A stretch of DNA of 49,263 nucleotides from Desulfarculus sp. (lineage in GTDB: Bacteria > Desulfobacterota > Desulfarculia > Desulfarculales > Desulfarculaceae). Under the pieces are notes generated by a model. That model did no database searches. It was not told the DNA's origin and saw nothing but the letters and a program-made list of their open reading frames with translations. The stretch covers positions 1 to 49,263 of the forward strand of contig JACRDC010000072.1 in the NCBI GenBank assembly GCA_016218705.1, in the 5' to 3' direction. The position numbers were made by a program, and so were the translations under genes. The stretch's first letter is position 1. Every line of letters starts with the position of its first letter. This document shows positions 24,701 to 48,628 of the stretch, piece after piece.

Positions 24701-24905
24701 TACCAAGTTGCGATCAAACGAGTAGTTTGATCGCAACTTGGTATGCGGGCCAAGAACCACCCCAAAAAAGCCGCGCTTTTTTTTGGGGACCCCGGTGGAT
24801 GGCCCGCCGGGCGCGAAAGCGCCCGGGAGGCCGGGCAAAACCACGTTTTTGCCCGCTCGAGGGCAAATCAAAGAGCCATGAATGGCTTTGATTGCATATT
24901 GGTAT
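24700..24905 (+). repeat. Structured ~205-bp dispersed element, copy 1
   Basis: Same element, same orientation, as 41194-41398. It begins with a perfect 20-bp hairpin (24700-24719 with 24725-24744, loop GAGTA). Next comes an outer stem GCGGGCCA/TGGCCCGC enclosing a CCCC-A6/T8-GGGG hairpin. A GGGCGC-GAAA-GCGCCC hairpin with a GNRA-type loop follows, then a GGGCAAAA/TTTTGCCC hairpin and an AATCAAAG..CTTTGATT hairpin. The last 20 bases (24886-24905) are an imperfect inverted copy (16/20) of the first 20, so the element has MITE-like terminal inverted repeats. No plausible protein is encoded. It starts at the stop codon of the 52-residue gene. Confidence 0.9.
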
Positions 24906-31300: not shown

Positions 31301-31444
31301 GATGGTGGGGAAGTCCACCTGGGGCAGGGGCGAGACGGGCAGCACCCTAAAGGCCAGGATGCCCGCCAGCATCAGCCCCACGGTGAGCAGGGTGGTGGCC
31401 ACCGGCCGCCGTATGAAATGGCTGGCCAGGCTCATGGGGCTCAA
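28328..31444 (-). CDS. mdtC: RND efflux pump inner-membrane subunit, MdtC-like
   Basis: 1038 residues, full length for the HAE-1 family. Proton-driven export of drugs or other amphiphiles through a TolC channel. It starts [37 protein letters not shown], the canonical first TM and loop. The TM4 acidic pair essential for proton relay is present ([16 protein letters not shown]). The C-terminal permease half ends with the typical '[16 protein letters not shown]' motif. Its start overlaps the stop of the neighbouring pump gene by 4 nt (ATGA), so it is translationally coupled. Tandem RND pumps after one adaptor match MdtABC, where MdtB and MdtC form a heterotrimer. It is the last gene of the operon. 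Confidence 0.93.
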
Positions 31445-34400
31445 ATCCGCCGGGCGCGCAGGCGCCGGGCCAGGCGGTCGAAGTAGAGGTAGATCACCGG
31501 CGTGGTGTAGAGGGTCAGCGCCTGGCTTATCACCAGGCCGCCGATGATGGCGATGCCCATGGGCACCCTGAGCTCGGAGCCCACGCCGCCGCCCAGGGCC
31601 AGGGGCAATGCGCCCAAGAGGGCGGCCATGGTGGTCATCATGATGGGCCGAAAACGCAGCAGGCAGGCCTCGAAGATGGCCTCCTCGGGGGGCTTGCCCT
31701 CGTGCCGCTCGGCCTCCAGGGCGAAGTCAATGACCATGATGCCGTTCTTCTTGACGATGCCGATGAGCAGGATCACGCCGATCACCGCGATGACCGTGAA
31801 GTCCAGCTTGAAGGCCATCAAGGCCAACACCGCCCCCACCCCGGCCGAGGGCAGGGTGGAGAGGATGGTGACCGGGTGGATGTAGCTCTCGTAGAGCACA
31901 CCCAGCACGATGTACACCGTCACCAGGGCCGCCAGGATCAAGAGCGGCTGGCTTTTCAGCGAGGCCATGAAGGCCAAAGCCGTGCCCTGGAAGCTCAGGC
32001 GGGCGCTGGCCGGCAGGTCCATGGCCTGGGCGTGGGCCTGGATGGCCTCCACGGCGTGGCCCAGGGAGGAGCCCGGCGCCAGGTCGAAGGAGATGGTCAC
32101 CGCCGGGAACTGGCCCTGGCGGTTGATGGCCAGGGGGCCGGTGGTCTGCTCCAGGCGGGCCACGGCCATGAGCGGCACCTGGCCGCCGCCGGCGCCGCGC
32201 AGGTAGATGGCGTGCAGCCCCTGGGGACCCTGGGACACCCCCGCCCCGGCGGCCAGCACCACGCGGTACTGGTTAAGCTCGGTGAAGATGGTGGAGACCT
32301 GGCGCTGGCCAAAGGCGTCGTAGAGGGCGTCGTCAATGGCCTGTGGGGTGATGCCCAGGCGGGCGGCGGTGGCCCGGTCAATGGTCAACTGGGCGCGCAG
32401 GCCCTGGTCCTGCTGGTCGCTGCTCACCCCGGACAGCTCCGGCCGCTGGTTCAAGGCCTCCACCAGGCGGGGGCCCAGTTGGTTCAGACGCGCCAGGTCC
32501 GGGTCCTCCACGGTCAGCTTGTACTGGGTGCGGCTGACGCGGGCGTCCACGGTGAGGTCCTGCACCGGCTGCATGTACAGGGTGATGCCCCGCACCCGCT
32601 CCAAGGCCGGTTGCAGGCGGCTTATCACCTGGCTGGCGCTCAGGCGGCGCTCGGCCAGGGGCTTCAGGTTGATCTGGATGCGTCCGCTGTTCAGGGTGGT
32701 GTTGGTGCCGTCTATGCCGATGAAGGACGACAGGCTCTCCACGGCCGGGTCTTTCAGTATCTCCACGGCCAGGGCCTGCTGCCGCGCGGCCATGGCCGGG
32801 AAGGAGATGGTCTGGGGCGCCTGGGAGATGCCCATGATGACCCCGGTGTCCTGCACCGGGAAGAAGCCCTTGGGAATGTAGATGTACAGGAGCACCGTCA
32901 GCGCCAGGGTGGCCAGGGCCACCAGCAGGGTGGCCGGCTGATGCCTGAGGACCCACATTAAGGATGTGCCGTAGTGCTCGATAATGCTGTCAAAAGCCGT
33001 TTGGGTCCAGTTGAAGAAGCGGCCCTGCTCGTGGCCGGGCTTGAGTAGCCGCGCGCACATCATGGGGGTGAGCGTCAGGGAGACCGCCGCCGAGATGAGG
33101 ATGGTCACGCCCAGGGTGATGGCGAACTCGCGGAACAGGCGCCCCACCACGTCGCCCATGAACAGCAGGGGAATGAGCACGGCGATGAGCGAGATGGTCA
33201 GCGAGATGATGGTGAAGCCGATCTGCTTGGAGCCCTTGAGCGCCGCCGCCAGGGGGGTGTCGCCCTCCTCCACGTAGCGGGCGATGTTCTCGATCATGAC
33301 GATGGCGTCGTCCACCACGAAGCCGGTGGAGATGGTCAGCGCCATGAGCGAGAGGTTGTTGAGGCTGAAGCCCAGGAGGTACATCACCCCGAAGCTGCCC
33401 ACCAGGGATAGGGGCACGGCCACGCTGGGGATGGCCGTGGCCGGCAGGTTGCGCAGGAACAAAAAAATGACCAGCACCACCAGCACCACGGCCAGCATCA
33501 GCTCGTGCTGCACGTCGGCCACCGAGGCCCGGATGGTGGTGGTGCGGTCGGTGAGCACCGTGACCCGCACCGAGGGGGGCAGGGCCTCTTGCAGTTGGGG
33601 CAGCAGGCGCTTGATGCGGTCCACCACCTCGATGACGTTGGCCCCGGGCTGGCGCTGGATGTTGACGATCACCGCCGGGTCCTGGTTCATCCAGGCCGCC
33701 TGGCGCACGTCCTCGGCGCCGTCCACCACCTCGGCCACCTCGGACAGGCGCACCGGCGCGCCGTTACGGTAGGCCACCACCAGGGGCCGGTACTCGGCGG
33801 CGGTGAAGAGCTGGTCGTTGGCGCCGATGACGTAGGACTGCATGGGGCCGTCAAAGCTGCCCTTGGCCTGGTTGACGTTGGCGGCGGCGATGGCGGCGCG
33901 CAGGTCCTCCAGGGTCAGGCCGTAGGCGGCCAGGGCCAGGGGGTTGGCGTGCACGCGCACGGCCGGACGTTGCCCGCCGCTGATGCTCACCAGGCCCACC
34001 CCGGGCAACTGTGATATCTTCTGGGCGAAGCGGGTGTCGGCCAGGTCGGCCACCTTGGGCAGGGGCAGGGCCTCAGAGGTCAGCGCCAAGGTGAGGATGG
34101 GCGCGTCGGCCGGATTGACCTTGCTGTAGACCGGCGGGTTGGGCAGGTCCTTGGGCAGGAAGGTGAAGGCGGCGTTGATGGCCGCCTGCACCTGCTGCTC
34201 GGCCACGTCCAGGTTCAGCTCCAGGGTGAATTGCAGGGTGACGATGGAGCTGCCGCTACTGCTGGTGGAGGTCATCTGGGTCAGGCCGGGCATCTGGCCG
34301 AACTGGCGCTCCAGGGGCGAGGTGACCGAGGAGGCCATGACGTCGGGGCTGGCGCCGGGGTAGAAGGTGCGCACCTGGATGGTGGGGTAGTCCACCTGGG

Positions 34401-34512
34401 GCAGGGCCGAGACGGCCAACTGGTGGTAGGCCACGGCCCCGGCCAGCAGGATGGCCACCATCAAGAGGGTGGTGGCCACAGGCCGCTCTATGAAGATGCG
34501 GGAGAAGTTCAT
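31441..34512 (-). CDS. mdtB: RND efflux pump inner-membrane subunit, MdtB-like
   Basis: 1023 residues. It pairs with the MdtC-like pump. It begins [41 protein letters not shown] and keeps the TM4 Asp pair ([16 protein letters not shown]), so both pumps look proton-competent by sequence. Porter-domain stretches ([20 protein letters not shown], then [33 protein letters not shown]) are standard for the family. Its start overlaps the adaptor stop by 4 nt, and its stop overlaps the MdtC-like start. Substrate cannot be deduced. Confidence 0.93.
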
Positions 34513-35732
34513 GGGGCCTTGGGGGCGGCGGGGCCGTTGCCTCGTTCCTTGGCCTCCACCTTGGCGCCCTCGCGCAGGCGCTCGGCGCCGTCAATGACCA
34601 CCAACTCGCCGGGCGCCAGGCCCGAGGCCACCACGGTGCGCCCCTCCTGGGTCTGGCCCAGATTGACCTTGCGCATGGCCGCGGTCTGGTCCTCCTTGAC
34701 CACGAAGACATAGACGCCCTGGGGTCCGCGCTGGATGGCCGCCGCCGGCACCACGATGGCGCCCCGCAGGGTCTCCACCAGCAGGCGGGCGTTGACGAAC
34801 TGGTTGGGGAACAGCTCGCCCCCCTGGTTGGGCAACAGGGCCTTGAGCTTGACCGTGCCGGTGCTGGTATCTATTTGGTTGTCCATGGTCAGCAGATGGC
34901 CCTGGGCCAACTTGCGCTGCTGCTCGCGGTCCCATGCCTCCACGGGCAGCTTGCCGCCGGAGCGGTATTTTTCCAGCACCTGGGTCAGGCTGTCCTCGGC
35001 GATGGTGAAGACCACGGCGATGGGCCGCACCTGGGCGATGACCAACAGCCCGCCCTGGTCGCTGGCGCGCACCATGTTGCCCGGGTCCACCAGGCGCAGG
35101 CCCACCCGGCCCTCCACGGGCGCGGTGATGTGGCAGTAGGTTATCTGTAGCCTGGCGTTGTCTATCTGTCCCTGGTCGGCCTTGACCACGCCCTCGTACT
35201 GCCTGACCAGGGCCTCCTGGGTGTCCAGTTGCTGCCTGGGGATGAGGTCCTGGGCCGCCAGTTCCTTGAAGCGCTTGAGGTCCAGGCGGGCGTTTTGGAG
35301 CAGGGCCTGGTCCTTGGCCATCTGGCCCTGGGCCTGGGTGAGCTGCACCTCGAAGGGCCGGGGGTCAATCTTGGCCAACGGTTCGCCCTTCTTGACGTCC
35401 TGGCCCTCCTGGAAATAGACCTCCATGAGGTGGCCGTCCACCCGCGAGCGCACGGTGACGGTGTTGAGCGGCGTGACCGTGCCCAGACCCGCGATATACA
35501 GGTCCACGTCGCTGACCTGGGCCGGCACGGCCACCACCGGCACGGGCAGGCCCCCGCCGGGGCGGCCCTTTTTCTCGGCGGCTGGCTGGGCCTTGCCCAG
35601 GGTGGCGTAGCCGCCGGCGGCCAGCAGCAACAGGACCGCCGCCACGATCCACCATGTACGGCGCCGCGAGGGGGCAGGTGGGGGCGCGGGGGGGCTGGCA
35701 CTGCTTGCTTGATGCTGGGGATCGCTGGACAT
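34509..35732 (-). CDS. mdtA: RND periplasmic adaptor (membrane fusion protein), MdtA-like
   Basis: 407 residues. It bridges the RND pumps and the outer-membrane channel. After a disordered Ser/Pro-rich N-terminus there is a TM anchor ([21 protein letters not shown], about residues 27-47). A lipoyl-like half ([58 protein letters not shown]), an alpha hairpin, and the barrel and membrane-proximal domains ([31 protein letters not shown]) follow. This is an uncleaved-anchor adaptor, like MdtA rather than lipidated AcrA. The gene lies 157 bp downstream of the TolC-like gene and is coupled to the pump genes. Confidence 0.92.
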
Positions 35733-35889
35733 GGCTGGCTGCTTACCGTTTCCTAAGGGGCACTGGAGGAGGGACGAAGAAGGCCAAAGCCGGCGGAGCA
35801 GGGGTGGGGTGCCGTTTCAGCATACTCTTTGACTACCATCTCCACGCAGAATCCACACCAAGGTACCAATAGGCCCATATCGTCAATTC

Positions 35890-37278
35890 TCACCGGGAGC
35901 CGGCGTCCTTGGCTTGTTCGTTAGCCTCTCCCGGCCCGCACTGGGGACCCGAGCATCGGGCGCGCTCCAGGTTGGCCAGGGCCTGCCAGCGCAGGTAGAT
36001 GGCCTGCACCAGGTTGCCCTTGGCCTGGGTGAGCAGGTACTGGGCGTCGCTGTACTCTATGGGGCTGCCCACGCCGGCCTTCCAGCGCCCCTCGGCCAGG
36101 TTCATGTTCTCCTGGGCCTGGCGCAGGGCCACGCGGGCGGCGGCGGTGGCCTCGCCGGTCTGCCTGACGCCCAACAGGGCCACCGAGACGTCCTGGCGCA
36201 CGGCCAGCTCGATCTGCTTGATCTGGGCGTCCACCTTGCGCAAGAGGGCCTTGGCCTCGCTGACCGTGCCCTCGGTCTTGAAGCCGCTGAACAGGGGCCA
36301 GGACAGGCTGGCGCCCACCAGCCAGCCCTCTTGCAAGGGGAAGTCAACGTTGGAGTAGAGGTAGGAGGCGTTGGCGTTGAGGGAGGGGAAGTAGCCTCCC
36401 TGGGCCGTGTCCAACTGGGCCAGGGCGGCCAGCCTCTGGGCCTGTAGGGAGCCCACCTCGGGGCGCTGGGCCAGGGCCTGTTTGAGCAGGGCCTCCAGGG
36501 CCGGGGGGTCGTCCTGGGATTCGGCGACCTTGGCCAGGCGGTAGGGACCCGGGGAGGGGGGGCCGCCCAGGATGGTCTCCAGGTTAACCTTGGCGGTGTG
36601 CAGGGCGTAGGTGGTCTGGATCAGTTGCAGCCGGGTGTTGGCCACGGCCACCTCGGTGTTGGTCACGTCCAGCTTGGCCTTGAGCCCGGTCTGGTAATAG
36701 GCCTGGGCCTGTCTGAGGTGCTCCAGTTGCACCCTCAGGGATGTCTCGTAGACGGTGACCAACTCTTCCTGCTTGAGTATCTCGAAGTAGGCGTTCTTGG
36801 CGTCGCGCACCACGTCGGCCTGGGTCTTGACCAAGCCCTTCTGGGTGGCGTTGAGGGTCTGGCGGCTTTTCTCCACGCGGCCCGGGGTCTGGCCGAAGTC
36901 GTAGAGGTACTGGGAGACCGACAGACTGTTGCTGTAGCTGTTGTACTGGCCGCCGCCGCTGCCGCCCTGGGAGAGCGACTGGCGGGAGTTCTCGTACCAC
37001 TGGCGTTGATAGGCAGACTGGGCGCCCACCTGGGGCCAGTAGGCGCTCCTGGTTTGCACGAGCTGGGCCTGGGCCGTGGCCACGTCCTCTTGGGAGGCGG
37101 CCACGCCGGGGTTGTTGGCCAGGGCCGCCTGCACCACCTGTTCCAGGGTCAGCTCGGGGCCATCGCCGGGGGCGGGATCATCGGCCGCCCCGGCGGGGCC
37201 GGCCAGGGGGGCCGCCAGCAGCCAGGCGGCCAGGAGGGCGATCAGGGACCAAGTTGGAGGCTTGCGTTTCATTTCCAT
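35890..37278 (-). CDS. TolC-family outer-membrane channel protein (RND operon)
   Basis: 462 residues with a cleavable signal (WSLIALLAAWLLAAPLAGPAGAADD). The TolC repeat structure is seen as two similar helical halves: LTLEQVVQAALANNPGVAASQEDVATAQAQLVQTRSAYWPQV near the N-terminus, and LAQRPEVGSLQAQRLAALAQLDTAQGGYFPSL in the second half. Long coiled-coil helices follow each. It forms the trimeric exit duct for the adjacent RND pump. ATG 37278 is used; a second ATG two codons later is equally possible. It is the first gene of the operon, and the 157-bp gap before the adaptor contains a TTGACG hexamer (minus strand, 35881-35886) that might be an internal promoter -35. Confidence 0.9.
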   Translation of the reverse strand: MEMKRKPPTWSLIALLAAWLLAAPLAGPAGAADDPAPGDGPELTLEQVVQAALANNPGVAASQEDVATAQAQLVQTRSAYWPQVGAQSAYQRQWYENSRQSLSQGGSGGGQYNSYSNSLSVSQYLYDFGQTPGRVEKSRQTLNATQKGLVKTQADVVRDAKNAYFEILKQEELVTVYETSLRVQLEHLRQAQAYYQTGLKAKLDVTNTEVAVANTRLQLIQTTYALHTAKVNLETILGGPPSPGPYRLAKVAESQDDPPALEALLKQALAQRPEVGSLQAQRLAALAQLDTAQGGYFPSLNANASYLYSNVDFPLQEGWLVGASLSWPLFSGFKTEGTVSEAKALLRKVDAQIKQIELAVRQDVSVALLGVRQTGEATAAARVALRQAQENMNLAEGRWKAGVGSPIEYSDAQYLLTQAKGNLVQAIYLRWQALANLERARCSGPQCGPGEANEQAKDAGSR

Positions 37279-41111: not shown

Positions 41112-41193
41112 GGCCTTCCTCGCGGCAAAAATGTTTATTGATTTAGTGTGCCAAAGGCCGGGGCGGCGCGCAACAGGCTTTGCGGGCCGGTTA
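41112..41193. other. Leader of the secreted-protein gene, no gene seen
   Basis: The 358-bp gap between 41111 and 41470 is mostly filled by repeat copy 2. The 82 bp here hold the ribosome-binding site of the minus-strand gene and a mildly AT-rich patch (TTTATTGATTTAG) that could be a promoter -10 for it. The 71 bp on the other side of the repeat (41399-41469) show nothing recognisable. Confidence 0.35.
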
Positions 41194-41398
41194 ATACCAA
41201 GTTGCGATCAAACGAGTAGTTTGATCGCAACTTGGTATGCGGGCCATGTATCCACCCCAAGCAAACTGCGTTTGCTTGGGGACCCCGGGGAATGGCCCGC
41301 CGGGCGCGAAAGCGCCCAGGAGGCCGGGCAAAACCACGTTTTTGCCCGCTCGAGGGCAAATCAAAGAGCCATGGATGGCTTTGATTGCATATTGGTAT
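41194..41398 (+). repeat. Structured ~205-bp dispersed element, copy 2
   Basis: Second copy of the element at 24700-24905, same orientation. The 5' 20-bp hairpin, the GAAA-capped hairpin, the GGGCAAAA hairpin and the AATCAAAG hairpin are nearly identical in sequence. The internal hairpin differs: here CCCCAAGCAAAC-TGC-GTTTGCTTGGGG, a perfect 12-bp stem, against an A6/T8 version in copy 1. Both arms changed and pairing was kept. The outer GCGGGCCA/TGGCCCGC stem is unchanged. The element ends TTGGTAT, inverted relative to its ATACCAA start. It lies between the end of the ABC operon and the secreted-protein gene, with no coding potential. Confidence 0.9.
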
Positions 41399-41469
41399 AA
41401 GGCCATCATCCTGGCCAGCCCTACAGGCTCCCGCTGGAGCGCGTTCGAGGATAATGGATTATCGGGCGC

Positions 41470-42702
41470 CTACTCGTGGCGCAGGGCGGCGGCGGGGTCC
41501 AGGCTGGCGGCGCGCAGGGCCGGGTAGAGCCCCGAGAGGATGCCCACGCCCACGGCCATGCCCAGGGACAAGGCCACGGGCCAGAAGGTGACTACAGACT
41601 TCCAGCCGGCCGCCATGTTGATGACAAGCACCCCCAGCATGCCCAGGACGATGCCCATGAGCCCGCCGCCCAGCGTAAGGAGCACCGCCTCGCCCAGGAA
41701 GTGGGCGGCGATGTGGGCGGCGCTGGCGCCGATGGCCCGGCGGATGCCGATCTCGCGGGTGCGTTCCGAGACGCTTGCCAGCATCATGTTCATGATGCCG
41801 ATGCCTCCCACCAACAGCGAGATGCCGGCGATGCCAAACAGCACCACGTTGAAGACCCGCTGGGTGCGCTGGGCCTGGTTGATGAGCTCCTGGGGCACCA
41901 CCACCTGAAAGTCCTCGAAGCCGCCGTGGCTCTGCATCAGCACCTGGCGGGCCACGGCAGCCGCCGGGCTGACCTGCTCGGCCTGGGCCATGCGCAAGAG
42001 TATCTCGCTCAGCTCGGGCTCGCGCTTGTCGCCCAGGCGGGGGGCGGGCTGGGCGCCCAGGGGCACGAAGATGGCGCGATTGTAGTTGCGGGCGGCGATG
42101 GCCGCGCTCTTGCCCTTGACCCAGCGGCGCTCGCGCAGGATGCCCACCACCAGGAAGGGCCGGTCCTCCAGGCTGACCATGCCGCCCAGGACCCCCTGGG
42201 CACCCAGCAGGCGCGAAGACTCCCAGCCCAGCACGCAGACTTGGTTCTTGTTCAAGACGTCCAGGGGCGCGATGAAGCGGCCCTGGGCCAGGTCCAGGCT
42301 CAAGGCCCGCGGGTAGGCGGCGGTGACCGCCAGCACCTCCAGGGGGTCGTCCTTGCTGGCCGCGGCCACGGCGGCGCGCACCTGCTTGAGCCCGGCCACG
42401 GCGGCTACCCCGGGCACCAGGCGCTCCAAGAGGGCCGCGTCGTCCTGCCTGAGCCCCCGGGAGAGGCGCTCGCGGGCGGCGGCCTCCTGCCCCTGGGTCA
42501 GCGCCGCCTGGCGCACGATGACGTTCTGGGTGCCCAGTTGGCCGATCTGCTCCAGGGTCTCGCGCTTGGCGCCCTCGGCCATGGCCAGCATGGCGATGAC
42601 CGCCATGACCGCGAAGACGATGCCCAGCATGCTTAGCCCCGTGCGCAGCTTGTGCTGCATCAGGGCCTGGCCCGAGGTGATGAGCAGTTTAACCCAGTTC
42701 AC
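41470..42702 (-). CDS. MacB-type ABC transporter permease (FtsX domain)
   Basis: 410 residues from GTG 42702, which overlaps the ATPase stop (GTGA). MacB-type permease: an N-terminal amphipathic/TM region (LLITSGQALMQHKLRTGLSMLGIVFAVMAVIAMLAM), a large periplasmic domain (about 60-265), then three TM helices with the FtsX signature (VVLFGIAGISLLVGGIGIMNMMLASVSERTREIGIRRAIGA) and SGLYPALRAASLDPAAALRHE at the end. MacB uses ATP to drive periplasmic mechanotransmission, pushing substrates through a TolC duct. E. coli MacB is a fusion; here ATPase and permease are separate. It is the last gene of the operon. Confidence 0.92.
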   Translation of the reverse strand: MNWVKLLITSGQALMQHKLRTGLSMLGIVFAVMAVIAMLAMAEGAKRETLEQIGQLGTQNVIVRQAALTQGQEAAARERLSRGLRQDDAALLERLVPGVAAVAGLKQVRAAVAAASKDDPLEVLAVTAAYPRALSLDLAQGRFIAPLDVLNKNQVCVLGWESSRLLGAQGVLGGMVSLEDRPFLVVGILRERRWVKGKSAAIAARNYNRAIFVPLGAQPAPRLGDKREPELSEILLRMAQAEQVSPAAAVARQVLMQSHGGFEDFQVVVPQELINQAQRTQRVFNVVLFGIAGISLLVGGIGIMNMMLASVSERTREIGIRRAIGASAAHIAAHFLGEAVLLTLGGGLMGIVLGMLGVLVINMAAGWKSVVTFWPVALSLGMAVGVGILSGLYPALRAASLDPAAALRHE

Positions 42703-43484
42703 GGGGCCTGCTCCGGGGCGCCCAGGGGCCGGCCGTCCAGCAGGTGGATGGTGCGGCCGGCCCGGGCGGCCACCTGGGGATCGTGGGTGACCACCACCAG
42801 GGTGACGCCTTGGCTGTTCAGCTCCTGGAACAGGGCCAGGATGGCCTGGCTGTTTTGGGAGTCCAGGTTGCCGGTGGGCTCGTCGGCCAATATCAGCCAG
42901 GGCTTGATGGCCAGGGCCCGGGCGATGGCCACCCGCTGCATCTCGCCGCCCGATAGCTGGGCCGGCCGGTGGTCCTGGCGGTGGCCAAGGCCCACGCGGA
43001 TTATGGCCTGCTCCACCTGGTTCTTGACCAACTCGGGGGACTGCTGGCGGTAGAGGAAGGGCAGGGCCACGTTCTCGGCCACCGTGAGCTGGGGTAGGAG
43101 GTTGAAGGTCTGAAAGATGAAGCCGATGTGGTTGGCGCGCAGGCGCGAGAGCTCGCGGTCGCCCATCTGGGAGACGTCCTGGCCGGCCAGGTGGTAGGAG
43201 CCCCGGCTGGGGCGGTCCAGGCAGCCCAAGAGAGTCAGCAGGGTGGACTTGCCCGAGCCCGAGGCGCCCATGATGGCCAGGTACTCGCCGCCGGCCATGG
43301 TCAGGTCCAGGCCTCGCAGGGCCTCCACCTGGCCGTACTGGGTGGGGTAGAACTTGCACAGGCCCTGGGCCAGCACCAGGGGTTGGCCGGCGGGGGGCTC
43401 GGCGGCGGCCTGGGGGAGGGCGGCGGGGCGGAGGAGGTCCTGGCAGAGTTCGCGCAGGGCCGCCAGGGGGGCGCGCTGGGCCAA
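42699..43484 (-). CDS. MacB-type ABC transporter ATPase
   Basis: About 261 residues from TTG 43484, the first acceptable initiator after the adaptor stop; the start is uncertain and may even lie inside the adaptor gene. Nucleotide-binding motifs are complete: Walker A GASGSGKST, Q-loop FIFQTFNLLPQLTVAENV, signature LSGGEMQRVAIARAL, Walker B LILADEPTGNLD, and H-loop VVTHDP. The sequence is of the LolD/MacB class. It powers the permease encoded next. The 3' end overlaps the permease start by 4 nt. Confidence 0.9.
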   Translation of the reverse strand: MAQRAPLAALRELCQDLLRPAALPQAAAEPPAGQPLVLAQGLCKFYPTQYGQVEALRGLDLTMAGGEYLAIMGASGSGKSTLLTLLGCLDRPSRGSYHLAGQDVSQMGDRELSRLRANHIGFIFQTFNLLPQLTVAENVALPFLYRQQSPELVKNQVEQAIIRVGLGHRQDHRPAQLSGGEMQRVAIARALAIKPWLILADEPTGNLDSQNSQAILALFQELNSQGVTLVVVTHDPQVAARAGRTIHLLDGRPLGAPEQAP

Positions 43485-43497
43485 GGGGGCGCGGCCC

Positions 43498-45012
43498 CTA
43501 GGAGCCGGCCGCCGCGGCGGCCTTTTGCTGCATGAGAGGCACCCGCCCCTTGACGCGCTCCTCGGGCGGACGCGACAGGGCCACGCGCTCGCCGTCGCCC
43601 AAGCCGGCACGCACCTGGGCCCAGCTCTCGTTCTGGGTGCCCAGGGAGACCTCGCGCAGCTCGTAGCCCTGGCCACGCTCCACGAAGCAGTAGTCCTTGT
43701 CGCCCTCGCGGAAGACCGCCGAGACCGGCACGCTGAGCGCGTCCTCCACCTGGCCGCAGTCTATGACCAGGCGGCAGGTCATGCCCGGCCGCAAGCGGGG
43801 GTCGCCCTCGGGGATGCTGATGGTGAGCTGGAAGAACTTGTCGGGGCTCTGCACGTCTCCCCGGGTCTTGGCCAGCACGCCGATGAAGTCGGCCTTGCCC
43901 GCCAGGCGCAGGTCGGGGTAGGCGTCCACGGTGATGTGGGCCTGCCGGCCGAGCGATATCTTGTGCAGGTCCACCTCGCGCACCTGGGTCTTGACGATCA
44001 TGCGCGAGACGTCGGGCAAGAAGACCAGGGGCTGGTTCTGCAAGACCATGTCGCCCACCTTGGGCTTCTGCTTCTGGCCGTTGATGAACTCCTCGCGCAA
44101 GACCACCAGGCCCGAGATGGGGGCGCGGATGACGGTGCTGGCCAGGTCCTGGCGGGCCACCCGCACCTCCTCGGTCAAGGTCTGTATCTCCTGCTGGGCC
44201 TGCTTGAGGGCGGCCATGGCCTGGCCCACCTTGAAGCCGGTGCCCTTCTTTTGCTGCTCCAGGTTGGTTTCCAGCTTCTGCACGCCGGTGCGGGCCTTTT
44301 GCAGCGAGGAGGGCAGCACGTGGTCGCGGAAGCTTTCCAGCTTGCGCTTGGCCAGATCGGCCTTGCGTTTGCTCTCCTCGGCCTTTTGCTTGGACTGGGC
44401 CACCTCGGTGGAGTTGGCGAAACCCCGCTTGGCCAGGGCCTCCAGGTCCTCGATGTAGCGGGTCTTCTTCTGAAGGTCCTCGCGGGCGTCCTGGGCCTCG
44501 CCCTCCAGGCGGGCCAGCTCCAGGGGACCGTCGCCCTTCTCCAGCTTGATGAGGTCCAGGCGGGCGGCCTGCAATTCGAATTGCAGGGCCTTCTCCTCGC
44601 GCTCCGACTGGCTGCGCTCCCACTGCACCACCTGCTCCAGGGCTGAGGCCTTGGTCTTGGCCTCTTGGAGCTTGGATTCCAGTTGGTTGGCCTTCTCCTC
44701 GAAGGGGGTGGGGTCCAGGCGCACCAGCACGTCGCCCTGCTCCACCCTGGTGCCGTCCTCGATGATCTGGATGATCTTGCCGCGGTCGCCGCGCACCTCC
44801 GAGCCCAGGACCACGGCCTTGGCCGCCTCCAACTCGCCCACCGAGCGCACCCGCACCTCGAAGCTCAGGCGGGCCACGCGCTCGCTCAGGGTGGCGCCGT
44901 CCTCGCCGCCTGGGCCGCCCTTGCGGGTCAGGCCGATGAGCAACAACAGCACCGCCACTCCCATGAGGGCGGCCATCACCGGCCGGTGCCGCAGCCAATA
45001 GGTAAAGTTCAT
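43498..45012 (-). CDS. HlyD/MacA-like periplasmic adaptor with long coiled coil
   Basis: 504 residues. An N-terminal TM anchor (HRPVMAALMGVAVLLLLIGL) is followed by a lipoyl half (LSFEVRVRSVGELEAAKAVVLGSEVRGDRGKIIQIIEDGTRVEQGDVLVRLDPTPFEEKANQL). A very long charged coiled coil (about residues 105-290) comes next, then the second lipoyl half (STVIRAPISGLVVLREEF), a barrel and a membrane-proximal domain. It is longer than MacA (about 370 residues), mostly from the coiled coil, implying a tall adaptor. It links the MacB-type pump to the TolC-like protein. Stop and start overlap the neighbouring genes (TolC-like stop ATGA). Confidence 0.9.
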   Translation of the reverse strand: MNFTYWLRHRPVMAALMGVAVLLLLIGLTRKGGPGGEDGATLSERVARLSFEVRVRSVGELEAAKAVVLGSEVRGDRGKIIQIIEDGTRVEQGDVLVRLDPTPFEEKANQLESKLQEAKTKASALEQVVQWERSQSEREEKALQFELQAARLDLIKLEKGDGPLELARLEGEAQDAREDLQKKTRYIEDLEALAKRGFANSTEVAQSKQKAEESKRKADLAKRKLESFRDHVLPSSLQKARTGVQKLETNLEQQKKGTGFKVGQAMAALKQAQQEIQTLTEEVRVARQDLASTVIRAPISGLVVLREEFINGQKQKPKVGDMVLQNQPLVFLPDVSRMIVKTQVREVDLHKISLGRQAHITVDAYPDLRLAGKADFIGVLAKTRGDVQSPDKFFQLTISIPEGDPRLRPGMTCRLVIDCGQVEDALSVPVSAVFREGDKDYCFVERGQGYELREVSLGTQNESWAQVRAGLGDGERVALSRPPEERVKGRVPLMQQKAAAAAGS

Positions 45013-46625
45013 GGTCTCACCATGGCGCTGTTCTCCACTTCCTTGGGCAAGGGGGGCCCGCCGCGCTCCACCAGGGTGCCCAGGGCGGCGCGCAGACGGT
45101 AGGTGCCCACGATATAGTCCACCACCAGGGACAACAGCGTGGTCTGGGCCTGGCGCAGGCGGTTCTCGGCCTCCAGCAGGGTGAAGTTGTCGGTCAGCCC
45201 GTGCTGGAATTTTACCTGGGCCAGCTCCAGTTGTCCCTCGGCCTGCCTGATCTGCTCCTGCTGGTTGGCGATGCGCTCCTGGCCGCGCCTGAGGCTGCGC
45301 AGTTCGCGGCGCACCTGGCGGATGACGTCGTCGCGGCGGTCCTCGCGGTTGCGCGTCGCCGCCTGCACGTTCAACAGGCTTCGCTGGAAGTTGGCGTTCT
45401 CGGCGGAGCGGTTAAGGTCGCTGCTGGTCACCAGGCTCAGGCCCCTGCTGTCGCGGTCGAAGAGAAAGCTGTCGTTGATGTTGTCGCCGGTGCTGAAGCG
45501 CTGGTAGCCCAGGGAGAGGTTGAGCTCCGGCAGGGTGCCGTGCTTGGCCACCCGGGAGAGGCGCTGGGTCTCGCTAACCGCGTCGCTGGCCTGCTCCAGC
45601 TCCACCCGCCGCTCCAGGGCCAGCTCCACGGCCTTGTCCTCGGCCAAGCGCAGGCTCTGGTAGGACAGGGGGGCCTCCAGCAGAATGGATTCCTCCTGCC
45701 TCAGCGCCAGGAGCACCTTGAGGTTGTCGGCGGCGTCCTGGAAGCTCTCGCGGGCGTTGGTCAGGCTGTCCTCGGCCTGCTTGAGCTGGATGGAGGCCCT
45801 AAAGACGTCTATGGGGGTGGCCAGGCCGGCCTTTTCCTTGGCCATGGCCGCTTGGGTGAAGCCATTTAGGCGGCGGGCGGCGTCCTCATTGAGGCGCAGC
45901 AACTCCCGCTGGCGGATGACCTCGTAGACCCCGGCCACGGTCTCGACCACGGTGCTGACCTGGTTGAGGTAGAAGCTGCGGCGGGCGGTGCGGTCGTAAT
46001 ACTGTGCCCCGTGCAGGGAGGAGAGGTTGAACTCGGGGCTGGTGCCCCGAAATAGGGGCTGGGTCAGGCGCATGTCCAGGCCGCTCTTGTAGGTGTCCCC
46101 GCTCAGGGAGACCACCGGGGCCACGCTGGCCCTGGTGCCGTAGGATATTTTTTTCTCCAGCTTGAAGCCCAGGGCATAGGTGCTGGCGCCGTCGTCGCTG
46201 TTGGCGGCGTTGAATGAGACCCCGGCCTGGGGATAGATCTTGAGTTCGAAATCTGACTCGGCCACCACGATGCCCAGGCGGGCGCTCTCAAGGTTGTCCT
46301 GGCTGTTGGCCAGGTTGCGGTTGGCCACCAGGGCGCGGTTGATCGCTTCGGCGAGGGTCAGGCGCGTGGGAGCGTCGGGACGGCTGGGCAGGCGGGGCTT
46401 ACGGTCGGCCCCGGGCAACACCACCGGACGCAGCAGGGTCTCGTTTTCCATGGGGGGTGTCTGTTGGGCCGGCGGCGGCCCCGGCTGGCCGGCCATGGCC
46501 GGGCCGGCGGCCAGGGCCAACAGAAGCCACAACGCCAGCAGGCAAAGGGCCACCGGGCGGGGAGGAGAGGGCCTCCTCCCGCCCGGCCTGGCCGGCGTTG
46601 GTCTGGTTGACGCTACTGCGTGCAA
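45009..46625 (-). CDS. TolC-family outer-membrane channel (ABC operon)
   Basis: 538 residues as drawn. The start is uncertain: TTG 46625 lies inside the upstream gene's end and GTG 46553 just before the signal peptide (VALCLLALWLLLALAAGPAMA) is an alternative; neither has a good ribosome-binding site. A proline-rich region precedes the TolC repeats: LTLAEAINRALVANRNLANSQDNLESARLGIVVAESDFELKIYPQAG, and later LALERRVELEQASDAVSETQRLSRVAKHGTLPELNLSLGY. It would form the exit duct for the MacAB-type pump. A GGGAGGAG/CTCCTCCC hairpin lies in its leader and could limit translation. Confidence 0.88.
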   Translation of the reverse strand: MHAVASTRPTPARPGGRRPSPPRPVALCLLALWLLLALAAGPAMAGQPGPPPAQQTPPMENETLLRPVVLPGADRKPRLPSRPDAPTRLTLAEAINRALVANRNLANSQDNLESARLGIVVAESDFELKIYPQAGVSFNAANSDDGASTYALGFKLEKKISYGTRASVAPVVSLSGDTYKSGLDMRLTQPLFRGTSPEFNLSSLHGAQYYDRTARRSFYLNQVSTVVETVAGVYEVIRQRELLRLNEDAARRLNGFTQAAMAKEKAGLATPIDVFRASIQLKQAEDSLTNARESFQDAADNLKVLLALRQEESILLEAPLSYQSLRLAEDKAVELALERRVELEQASDAVSETQRLSRVAKHGTLPELNLSLGYQRFSTGDNINDSFLFDRDSRGLSLVTSSDLNRSAENANFQRSLLNVQAATRNREDRRDDVIRQVRRELRSLRRGQERIANQQEQIRQAEGQLELAQVKFQHGLTDNFTLLEAENRLRQAQTTLLSLVVDYIVGTYRLRAALGTLVERGGPPLPKEVENSAMVRP

Positions 46626-47725
46626 ACCGTGAAGTTCTGCTCGTCGCCCGCCATCAGGGACCAGTTTAGCTTGAAGGGCTTGCCCGGGGCCTGGTCGGTG
46701 AGCAAGAGGGCGCCGCGGTTGGGCGGCTCATCCGAGTGGTTGATGGCCACCACGGTAATGGTGTTGACGCTGGGGCAGGCGTTGAGGCTGATGGTGGTGG
46801 TGGCGCCGGAGTGGTTGAGCACCTCGTTGGCAAAGACGAAGTTGCCGTTGAGCTTGACGTGCACCACCATGTCGTCGTCGCGCACGGTCTCGTCATCCAC
46901 CAGCACGGTGAGGTTGACGGTGGTTTTGGTGACCGTGGTGTCGCCGGTGCACTGGCAACCAGGGGCGGGGGTGCTGCCGCCGCCACCGCCGCCGCCACCG
47001 CCGCCACCACCGCTGTTGGCTGCCGCGATGGCGATACCGCCGCCCACCAGCACGGCGCCGCCAGCCACCAGCAAGGCCGTGGTGGTGGAGATGCCGCCGT
47101 AGGTCACGGGCACGGCGCCGGCAAAGGAGGCCCCGGCGGCCGAGGTGGCGCTGGCCGGGGCGTCGGTCAGGCCGGCCAGGGCGCCGTAGCACTGGGAGGC
47201 GTCGGTGCCGGTGATGCTCAGGTTGTCTTCAAAACCGGTCAGGGTAGTGGGGGTGGGGGTGCGCTCCATGGAGACCGCGATCTTGCGCGCGGAGGTGGCC
47301 GACTGCCAGGAGGGCGTGGACTGATCATACTTGGCCGGCACCAAGAGGTTGCCGGACTTGGCGATGGACCGCTGGCCGTTCACCACCAGGAGGGCGTACT
47401 CGATGCCCGTGGAACCCGAGGCCGGGGCGGGCAGCTCGCCCACGAAGGTGTCACTACCGGTCTTGACCATGTCCACGTGGGCAAAGGGAGTGGAGGTCTT
47501 GGCGGCGCGGAAGTAGCAGCGCACCAACTGCACACCCTTGGGGTCGGTGACCTTGGCCTCTATCTTGATGCGCTTGGCCGGCACCACGAACTCCAGCGGC
47601 TGGTGCTCGATGGCGGTTTCGGCCTTGGCCGCGCTGGCGTAACGGGGGGTGAGCCCCAGCATCATGCTGAGGCATAGTAGGGCCACCAGGGGCGGGCTGG
47701 CAATTTTTTGCAACAACTTCGGCAT
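46613..47725 (-). CDS. Secreted/membrane protein with 12-glycine linker, first gene of the ABC operon
   Basis: 370 residues, with GGAAAGGAA 8 nt before the ATG. A signal peptide (SPPLVALLCLSMMLGLTPRYASAA) is followed by an Ig-like domain (PLEFVVPAKRIKIEAKVTDPKGVQLVRCYFRAA, then YALLVVNGQ), and a Thr/Ala/Ser-rich part. A hydrophobic stretch follows (STTTALLVAGGAVLVGGGIAIAAA), then twelve consecutive glycines encoded by a GCC/ACC-type tract on the + strand (about 46977-47020). The C-terminal domain is beta-rich (TTVNLTVLVDDETVRDDDMVVHVKLNGNFVFANEVLNHSGATTTISL) and has Cys at both ends. It overlaps the TolC-like gene and is co-transcribed with the exporter, so it is a candidate substrate or envelope partner. 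No known family recognised. Confidence 0.7.
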   Translation of the reverse strand: MPKLLQKIASPPLVALLCLSMMLGLTPRYASAAKAETAIEHQPLEFVVPAKRIKIEAKVTDPKGVQLVRCYFRAAKTSTPFAHVDMVKTGSDTFVGELPAPASGSTGIEYALLVVNGQRSIAKSGNLLVPAKYDQSTPSWQSATSARKIAVSMERTPTPTTLTGFEDNLSITGTDASQCYGALAGLTDAPASATSAAGASFAGAVPVTYGGISTTTALLVAGGAVLVGGGIAIAAANSGGGGGGGGGGGGSTPAPGCQCTGDTTVTKTTVNLTVLVDDETVRDDDMVVHVKLNGNFVFANEVLNHSGATTTISLNACPSVNTITVVAINHSDEPPNRGALLLTDQAPGKPFKLNWSLMAGDEQNFTVCTQ

Positions 47726-48244: not shown

Positions 48245-48628
48245 TCACCCTGGCTGAGAATAATGAAGTCCCGTGGTGCCAGGGCGGCCAACGCGCTGCT
48301 TCGGCAGCCATAGACAAGTTGATAGGCCGCGAAGGGGCGATGGTAGTCCAGCCCGGGGCAGGAGCCGATACTCCAGACGGCGTTCAGACCCACCCCCAGC
48401 ACCCACACCGATGGCAGGCCCAGGGCCACGGCCCAGCGCTGCCAGGCCGAGGCGGTGTTTGGCGAAGTCGCCTTCCCAGGCATGGTGGTAATCCCGGGCG
48501 CCGAAACCCTGGGCTATATCCACGGTGCGGTCGCTGGAGCCGGTGTCCACCAGCACGATCTCGTCCACCCAGGGGCGGGCGCTGGCCAGGCAGGCGCCCA
48601 GGCGCCGCTCCTCGTTCTTGGCGATCAT
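48245..48628 (-). pseudogene. Glycosyltransferase family 2 fragment, truncated and frameshifted
   Basis: ATG 48628 opens the typical GT2 N-terminus: MIAKNEERRLGACL, then WVDEIVLVDTGSSDRTVDIA and YHHAWEGDFAKHR (a GT-A nucleotide-binding start). The stretch just upstream also reads SDASINLC in frame, matching normal family N-termini, but has no start. After DFAKHR (about 48449) the expected 'N..l..a.gdWil.LDaDE' DxD region is missing. Another frame (48223-48449) instead reads WQRWAVALGLPSVWVLGVGLNAVWSIG, then GLDYHRPFAAYQLVYG, which looks like the end of an unrelated membrane protein. The gene is therefore a remnant, perhaps a deletion fusion of two genes. Confidence 0.65.

Follow-up and report, generated by a model that had tools for sequence, protein, structure and literature searches.

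Results

An exporter operon headed by a secreted protein

The stretch of DNA analysed here (the window) is one whole contig of 49,263 bases from the 4.2-Mb assembly of a Desulfarculus sp., and it carries an operon of five genes, all on the minus strand between 41470 and 47725, in the order lead gene, tolC, adaptor, ATPase, permease. An initial annotation, made from the sequence of the window, had described a five-gene exporter operon with a TolC channel, a HlyD/MacA adaptor and a split MacB ATPase and permease. That description holds: each gene lies where it had been placed, on the minus strand, overlapping or adjoining its neighbor, and the Pfam matches of the four transporter proteins each exceed the curated cut-off.

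46613..47725, minus strand: lead gene, encoding a secreted two-domain protein of 370 amino acids (open reading frame and translation; purifying selection against orthologues)
45009..46625, minus strand: TolC-family outer membrane channel, 538 amino acids, TTG start (Pfam OEP, E=1e-29)
43498..45012, minus strand: HlyD/MacA-type periplasmic adaptor, 504 amino acids (HlyD_D23, HlyD_3 and RND_mfp above cut-off)
42699..43484, minus strand: MacB/LolD-type ATPase, start uncertain, at TTG 43484 or GTG 43376 (ABC_tran and ATPase motifs)
41470..42702, minus strand: MacB-type permease, 410 amino acids, four hydrophobic helices (MacB_PCD and FtsX; hydropathy)

The lead gene overlaps tolC by 13 nt, tolC overlaps the adaptor gene by 4 nt, and the ATPase gene overlaps the permease gene by 4 nt. 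The ATPase frame has no ATG upstream of its conserved part, and the gap that separates it from the adaptor gene is 13 nt with the TTG start at 43484 and 121 nt with the GTG start at 43376. The permease matches MacB_PCD (PF12704, 99.7 bits) and FtsX (PF02687, 71.8 bits), both above cut-off, which places it in the MacB family (type VII ATP-binding cassette, or ABC, transporters). Its hydropathy peaks at residues 23-41, 286-304, 343-361 and 370-396, the last being two overlapping peaks counted as one, give the topology of that family, with four helices, one before and three after the periplasmic domain. The ATPase has the Walker A and B, Q-loop, H-loop and signature motifs. MacB is thus split over two overlapping genes rather than forming a fused chain, and the match to PRK10535 is below cut-off for both proteins. 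The window's TolC matched the type_I_sec_TolC model with a score below its cut-off, and the adaptor, at 70.7 bits against a cut-off of 342 for the MacA model PRK11578, is not a MacA equivalog. The adaptor had been called unusually long, which it is beside E. coli MacA (a model of 371 positions), but 504 amino acids is not unusual for its own subfamily, because untruncated relatives run from 477 amino acids upward, mostly about 480-520 from the first possible start. No AatD-like (Lnt-like) acyltransferase was found with Pfam among the five operon genes or the four scanned downstream genes, the rest of the genome lying outside that search. The transporter itself is of a known kind.

The lead protein is of a secreted type, with the hydrophobic stretch and the exactly 12 consecutive glycines of the initial annotation, and its parts are arranged as follows.

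47630..47725, minus strand: signal peptide region, residues 1-32, boundary set by eye (hydrophobic stretch 8-26, then a small-residue cleavage-like site)
47132..47629, minus strand: N-domain, residues 33-198, resembling immunoglobulin (Ig) or E-set domains, with a conserved (Y)GxxAGL tail (homology to proteins at loci L111, L127 and L131 and to two at L027)
47021..47077, minus strand: hydrophobic segment, residues 217-235, uncharged (mean hydropathy 2.2; recurs in neighbor proteins of related operons)
46976..47011, minus strand: run of 12 glycines, residues 239-250 (exact count; mixed GGT and GGC codons)
46616..46957, minus strand: C-terminal beta domain, residues 257-370, with cysteines 257, 259, 317 and 368 (AlphaFold block from residue 261)

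Further cysteines stand at positions 18, 70 and 179, and the likely mature N-terminus (by eye, near residue 33, AKAETAIEHQ) is not glycine. The protein has nothing above cut-off in Pfam or NCBIfam, the top Pfam match being DUF3244 at 14.6 bits against 25, and neither collection yields a BapA_N or Lap-type retention domain at E<=0.1. Its orthologues are under purifying selection, with ratios of nonsynonymous to synonymous change (dN/dS) of 0.15 against locus L004 and 0.39 against L005. The AlphaFold model, built on a three-row alignment, is poor (mean predicted local distance difference test score, pLDDT, 44.9), and therefore neither the N-domain nor the topology is settled by it; the C-domain forms a block at pLDDT 62-77 from residue 261 on. 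Foldseek gave zero matches under E 0.1. The C-domain weakly resembles carbohydrate-binding module (CBM) family 60 (best Z 7.5), and residues 52-133 of the N-domain weakly resemble alpha-amylase N-domains (Z 6.9), both scores lying in a range typical of common arrangements.

Related exporters adjoin varied proteins with a common segment

Related transporters were found with an adaptor profile in other families of the phylum, and 31 further loci were fetched, so that 34 were inspected (the window, L004, L005, L061-L071 and L094-L113). The genes stand in the order tolC, adaptor, ATPase, permease wherever the contigs allow it to be seen, with the exception of L064, a lone adaptor gene without other transporter genes. 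At 17 of the 34 loci, a protein with a hydrophobic, glycine-rich segment is encoded near the operon, no more than about 1.5 kb away and with at most one gene between (L106, L111); eleven loci have none, and six (L063, L068, L100, L105, L107, L110) are undecided because their contigs end there. The segment gene lies upstream in seven cases (window, L004, L005, L061, L094, L106, L111, the first three from one genus), downstream in eight (L062, L095, L096, L098, L101, L102, L103, L104), and downstream on the opposite strand in two (L108, L109). For L098, the gene stands after a permease fragment on L147, a second contig from that genome, and the two contigs probably join. At L062 (13548-15853), the segment gene is followed by genes for a PqqD-like protein, a kinase-like protein (by eye, with no Pfam match) and an NTP_transf_5 protein, and the same three-protein set, recognized by its likeness to the L062 proteins, follows the segment gene at L095 (3461-5773).

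These neighbor proteins share a plan of a signal-like start, a variable N-terminal part, about 19 small hydrophobic residues, a Gly/Ser-rich run and a beta domain. They are not one family: the N- and C-domains vary while the segment recurs. The N-terminal part may be Ig-like as in the window (L111), CsgG-like (L061, L094, L108, L109), or short and apparently unstructured; CsgG scores above cut-off in L109 and in L141, a copy far from the operon, and below it in L061, which is homologous to both. The C-domains are of at least five kinds, namely the Cys domain of the window, one with a WTTHxGPA...YDYV...LDxLxLxR ending, a lipocalin-like and a Big_5-like domain (both weak matches below cut-off), and the domain of L140. 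The window's N-domain is 30-35% identical to those of L111, L127, L131 and the two L027 proteins. When 35 proteins were compared, families sharing no other detected domain gave short matches centered on the segment, with E of about 1e-3 to 1e-11. On the adaptor tree, neighbor types are spread over several branches, with the Ig type on two, and segment proteins occur in tandem at L101, L144 and L145, with no more than three segment matches per genome.

The emphasis that the initial annotation laid on polyglycine is not upheld. The run measures 12 residues in the window, 11 and 6 in two close orthologues and 0-8 in the other segment proteins measured, with L102 lacking any run of two or more, and this variation rules out polyglycine as the key feature. 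To judge from the sequences, the recurring element is a hydrophobic stretch together with a Gly/Ser-rich run. A search of 546 length-filtered open reading frames from fetched loci of at least 5 kb with a segment model returned only neighbor segment proteins at E<0.01, the next match being at 0.012; L102 and L147 are not among the rows of the model. The window operon shows each defining feature, with a signal-like start, an internal uncharged segment, a Gly/Ser-rich run, a C-terminal beta domain and linkage to the exporter. Near the adaptors of distant branches (L063/L064, L065-L071), no segment protein was seen. At L097 and L099, the exporter operons adjoin type VI secretion genes (T6SS_VasE, DotU), with no segment protein in view.

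Segment and transporter co-occur in one family

Co-occurrence was measured in 60 genomes of one family (f106) with segment model A3 (42 positions, from 14 segments), and the transporter was scored as present by a match to the adaptor of genome G385 at E<=1e-20, which holds for 24 of the 60. The segment (E<=1e-3) is found in 18 of the 24 genomes with the transporter and in one of the 36 without (p=2.4e-9), and when the ten genomes that contributed model rows are left out, in 8 of 14 against 1 of 36 (p=4.4e-5); both are Fisher tests, which treat genomes as independent, which they are not, and the second comparison is not fully independent because genomes related to the ten are still in the set. 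Across the seven genera in which both kinds of genome occur, model-source genomes included, the segment is present in 15 of 21 transporter-bearing and 1 of 13 transporter-less genomes. Among the 18 positives, the segment gene is adjacent to the operon in 12 (ten model sources, G440 and, probably, G493), elsewhere in four (G452, G465, G474, G482), and undecided at contig ends in two (G460, G469). The sole match in a transporter-less genome comes from G444, which is 87% complete: its top match is a BapA-type adhesin, with BapA_N recognized by both Pfam and NCBIfam and the segment just after the BapA_N prefix, and a second, weaker match is present too. Among 36 genomes chosen by hand, the 14 without the transporter all fall short of 1e-3, and four of them have matches at 0.007-0.03.

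Proteins that combine the window's N-domain with the segment are encoded close to a distant form of the transporter at L111, while those of L127 and L131 lie away from it in genomes that carry one. An N-domain profile gave 15 matches in 10 of the 60 f106 genomes; the four with the segment (G451 twice, G452, G488) are all in transporter-bearing genomes, and three are unclassified (G457 and second copies in G452 and G488). Loss of the segment along with the transporter, examined with this profile, is not a clean pattern, since segment-less copies occur in both kinds of genome. L027 (8936-11416), in a genome without the transporter, encodes tandem proteins that join the window's N-domain to the C-domain of the short segment proteins and have no hydrophobic, glycine-rich segment, and proteins like this pair lie about 12-14 kb from the operon in transporter-bearing genomes (L174, L175).

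The lead gene among close relatives

The closest homologue of the lead protein, 95% identical, is in a metagenome-assembled genome of a Desulfarculus sp. (Desulfarculaceae, Thermodesulfobacteriota). The lead gene is present in 3 of 60 relatives when the window's own genome is counted (2 of 59 others). A match to the adaptor at E<=1e-20 occurs in 2 of the 60, each of which also has the lead gene; in the third lead-bearing genome (L005), the contig ends within tolC. Three more genomes of the genus, at 97%, 70% and 54% completeness, lack the lead gene. From these presences and absences, the lead gene and the exporter seem to come and go together, but the sample is small, being three genomes from a single genus. 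In the sister genome (L004, 11080-14490), tolC has missing parts and an internal stop and the ATPase gene a deletion and a frameshift, which is decay or misassembly; the lead, adaptor and permease frames are intact. The initial annotation had named co-occurrence of the lead gene with the transporter across genomes as a check on its proposal. For strict homologues the outcome counts against that proposal, because among genomes that carry a related transporter, most lack any homologue of the complete lead protein.

No relative of the lead protein was found in the plasmids or viral contigs searched; 301 plasmid records have an adaptor match, all below 60% identity. Two sets of candidate relatives were discarded. 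The protein of G296 (L028) shares only the Ig-like domain, and among the segment-region matches that a three-row lead profile gave across the phylum, the loci read (L017/L030, L018/L031, L020, L021, L023) have lipoprotein-type signals with glycine runs after them, or are unrelated frames.

Other features of the window

A second tripartite set lies on the operon's strand at 31441-37278, with an open reading frame resembling resistance-nodulation-division (RND) transporters at 31441-34512 (by eye), an adaptor-like one at 34509-35732 and a TolC-like one at 35890-37278; its adaptor-like and TolC-like proteins are only distantly similar to those of the operon. Downstream of the operon, a row of hairpins occupies 41194-41407, with perfect arms of 20 nt at 41194-41238 and 12 nt at 41255-41281, among others. 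The 320-nt stretch at 41150-41469 folds far better than shuffled sequences (z -7.6), and the core of the first hairpin (41194-41238) recurs exactly at 24706-24738. Upstream of the lead gene, 48245-48628 encodes an apparently truncated or frameshifted piece of a family 2 glycosyltransferase, which matches only the first third of the PF00535 profile (32.6 bits).

Discussion

The recurrence of segment proteins beside one branch of the transporter, and their co-occurrence with it in one family, very probably reflect a functional link between the two in that branch. What that link consists of is less certain. The initial annotation had offered the lead protein as cargo or as a tethered envelope partner, and in terms of architecture a pairing is seen in one branch, at half of the inspected loci and in most transporter-bearing f106 genomes; the choice between cargo and partner is not decided by sequence. 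We lean towards the segment proteins being cargo, and the fuller reading, in which the operon would encode both a MacB/Aat-like exporter that depends on Sec and a cargo protein belonging to it, strikes us as evenly poised. On that reading, Sec would move the lead protein into the periplasm, and the internal hydrophobic, glycine-rich segment would keep it attached to the outer face of the inner membrane, as has been proposed for the acyl chain of CexE in the Aat system; alternatively, the segment might later lie in the TolC or outer-membrane conduit, as in retained giant adhesins. The split ATPase and permease, by mechanotransmission as proposed for MacB, would extract the protein and push it through the adaptor and TolC. 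The flexible Gly/Ser/Pro run would then let the C-terminal beta domain show outside while the segment anchors the protein, and the N- and C-domains would be swappable binding modules, perhaps for polysaccharide. That the segment is itself the feature recognized by the exporter or its channel is a tentative suggestion, and one we think rather unlikely. Equally doubtful is its extension, in which the segment would be an undescribed export-and-anchoring signal read by this MacB-type branch, one that lets otherwise unrelated Sec-delivered proteins leave the inner membrane for display through TolC. It would be a protein-based counterpart of the Aat acyl anchor, with a similar segment in the TolC-spanning part of BapA-type adhesins.

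Several observations weigh against the cargo reading, and topology is its main difficulty. When a signal peptide is followed by a membrane-spanning helix, a domain beyond the helix normally ends up cytoplasmic, and TolC is not expected to admit a folded N-domain. With a cleaved signal peptide and a true transmembrane helix, the C-domain would thus remain cytoplasmic, and so the segment must be one that either lets Sec transfer continue or is extracted afterwards. Eleven loci have no segment neighbor (L064, L065, L066, L067, L069, L070, L071, L097, L099, L112, L113); six of these (L065, L066, L067, L069, L070, L071) belong to a long-adaptor branch and two (L097, L099) are linked to type VI secretion, with L070 giving no view upstream of tolC and the contig of L099 beginning inside the adaptor gene. 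Several segment proteins are far from the operon, and the eight N-domain copies without the segment occur both in genomes lacking the transporter (G420 twice, G492, G481) and in genomes with it (G441, G478, G475 and a third copy in G451). The window's own segment matches the common model weakly, at 1.1e-5 among the locus open reading frames even though it is a model row, and at 0.003 in a search of its own genome, which misses the 1e-3 threshold. In the sister genome, the lead gene is intact beside a broken tolC and ATPase gene, which misfits an obligate pair if the assembly is right. Across the phylum, where 12 of the 395 genomes sampled (the window's included) have a related adaptor at E<1e-35, the segment (E<=1e-3) is found in 2 of those 12, G161 and G385, both model-row sources, against 16 of the 383 others. 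Loci were read for three of these 16: L152 (FecR-like by eye) and L155 carry a convincing segment near the C-terminus in the absence of this transporter, and L154 is a lipoprotein signal. The phylum counts and the segment-less distant adaptor branches thus indicate a link limited to one portion of the transporter family, and a segment that also occurs outside it.

The same phylum counts and the weak match of the window's segment would suit a generic membrane helix with a flexible linker, beside an ordinary MacAB-type drug or stress efflux pump to which the neighbor is incidental, as would the transporter-less segments of L152 and L155 and the hydrophobic stretch with a glycine run in the lipoprotein-like L017, L020 and L021. 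We consider this improbable, given the internal position of the segment, its presence near the operon at half of the loci, the contrast within f106 that persists once model sources are left out, and the fact that the 546 open reading frames held no other match below 0.01. A fixed envelope partner, that is, a periplasmic or outer-membrane accessory anchored by the segment and serving a different cargo such as a glycolipid or a polysaccharide-linked molecule, is a possibility we take seriously while judging it unlikely. Anchoring in the membrane fits a signal peptide plus one helix, and transport of a folded N-domain would then be unneeded. The surroundings of some operons are also suggestive: two whose neighbors were identified by domain, L106 (MBOAT, two AlgX-type proteins, an LPG-synthase-type membrane protein, a glycosyltransferase and a sugar transferase) and L062 (a polysaccharide pyruvyl transferase and an LPG-synthase-type protein), are set in exopolysaccharide-type loci, and the segment genes of L139 and L151 adjoin glycosyltransferases. 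Partners are usually one conserved family, however, and here the N- and C-domains differ around a recurring segment, some copies stand in tandem, and some are far from the operon; the window, too, has only its truncated glycosyltransferase fragment nearby.

It is also conceivable, though rather unlikely, that the lead protein stays lodged in the TolC channel in the manner of the giant adhesins LapA and BapA, with the N-domain as a periplasmic plug, the segment in the channel, the C-domain outside and perhaps release by cleavage, an arrangement that overlaps with the cargo reading. The G444 adhesin (L146; 8.1e-9) and, weakly, a Rahnella adhesin (L184; 0.019) carry a comparable segment directly behind the BapA_N prefix, and retained adhesins are described, in passages of one study, as spanning and anchoring in TolC-like channels (PMC13090378). 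These are only two BapA-type examples, one of them weak, the lead protein has no BapA_N match and no reported RTX-type repeat, and the exporter is MacB-type.

Cargo is known for few MacB-type exporters. The kind of transporter being familiar, its pairing with modular proteins that carry the segment is the part worth testing, and should the pairing prove real, the segment would offer a searchable mark by which cargo of this branch could be recognized. Together with the weak likeness to a CBM, the exopolysaccharide loci around some operons would suggest that these proteins help to keep capsule or matrix attached to the cell, which is a guess that fits. The question also bears on how surface proteins cross the outer membrane when they have neither autotransporter nor classical type I secretion signals. 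Among the matches listed from the open-access literature (PubMed Central, PMC), we found no report of such a pairing between segment and exporter.

Comparison with known systems places the operon among several partial parallels. The GlyGly-CTERM tag, a Gly-Gly pair with a hydrophobic helix, stands at the extreme C-terminus and is paired with a protease, unlike the present segment, which is internal (217-250 of 370) and paired with an ABC exporter. Common to both is that many tagged proteins are matched to a single membrane machine, as in the GlyGly-CTERM/rhombosortase system (PMC3237569). The lead protein resembles the LapA/BapA adhesins in the segment that follows a BapA_N prefix in the two examples given above, and differs from them in that they use type I secretion and are very large repeat proteins, while it has no BapA_N. 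Retained adhesin polypeptides have been described, in the same study, as spanning a TolC-type channel (PMC13090378). With MacAB-TolC, the operon shares a MacB_PCD/FtsX permease, a LolD/MacB-type ATPase, an adaptor and TolC; unlike it, the operon has a split MacB, an adaptor far below the MacA cut-off and a neighboring secreted protein. MacAB-type pumps, according to passages of two papers, also export a Sec-delivered peptide (PMC7943197, PMC8277102).

A further parallel is BapP of Pseudoalteromonas tunicata, an adhesin whose gene neighbors encode an adaptor, ABC permeases and an ATPase resembling LolD, and which is proposed, in the excerpts of its report, to be their cargo (PMC12153261). Like the lead protein, BapP is described there as having a predicted Sec signal and beta-sandwich domains (PMC12153261); unlike it, BapP is large, with Ca-binding repeats, its tolC is encoded elsewhere, and a hydrophobic, glycine-rich segment is not mentioned in those excerpts (PMC12153261). 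The Aat system, as set out in passages of one study, picks up the Sec-delivered, acyl-anchored CexE on the periplasmic side and takes it to the cell surface by way of a split MacB-type transporter, TolC and an adaptor, and its two cargo proteins, CexE and Aap, are 18% identical and often not adjacent to the operon (PMC7943197). The window operon departs from Aat in that an AatD-like acyltransferase is not among its five genes, and in that the candidate cargo has an internal hydrophobic, glycine-rich segment where Aat cargo, so described, has an acylated N-terminal glycine. Like Aat (AatPABCD), as far as those passages describe it, the operon encodes together a TolC-like channel, a MacA-like adaptor and a split permease and ATPase, in an order that is the same in related loci.

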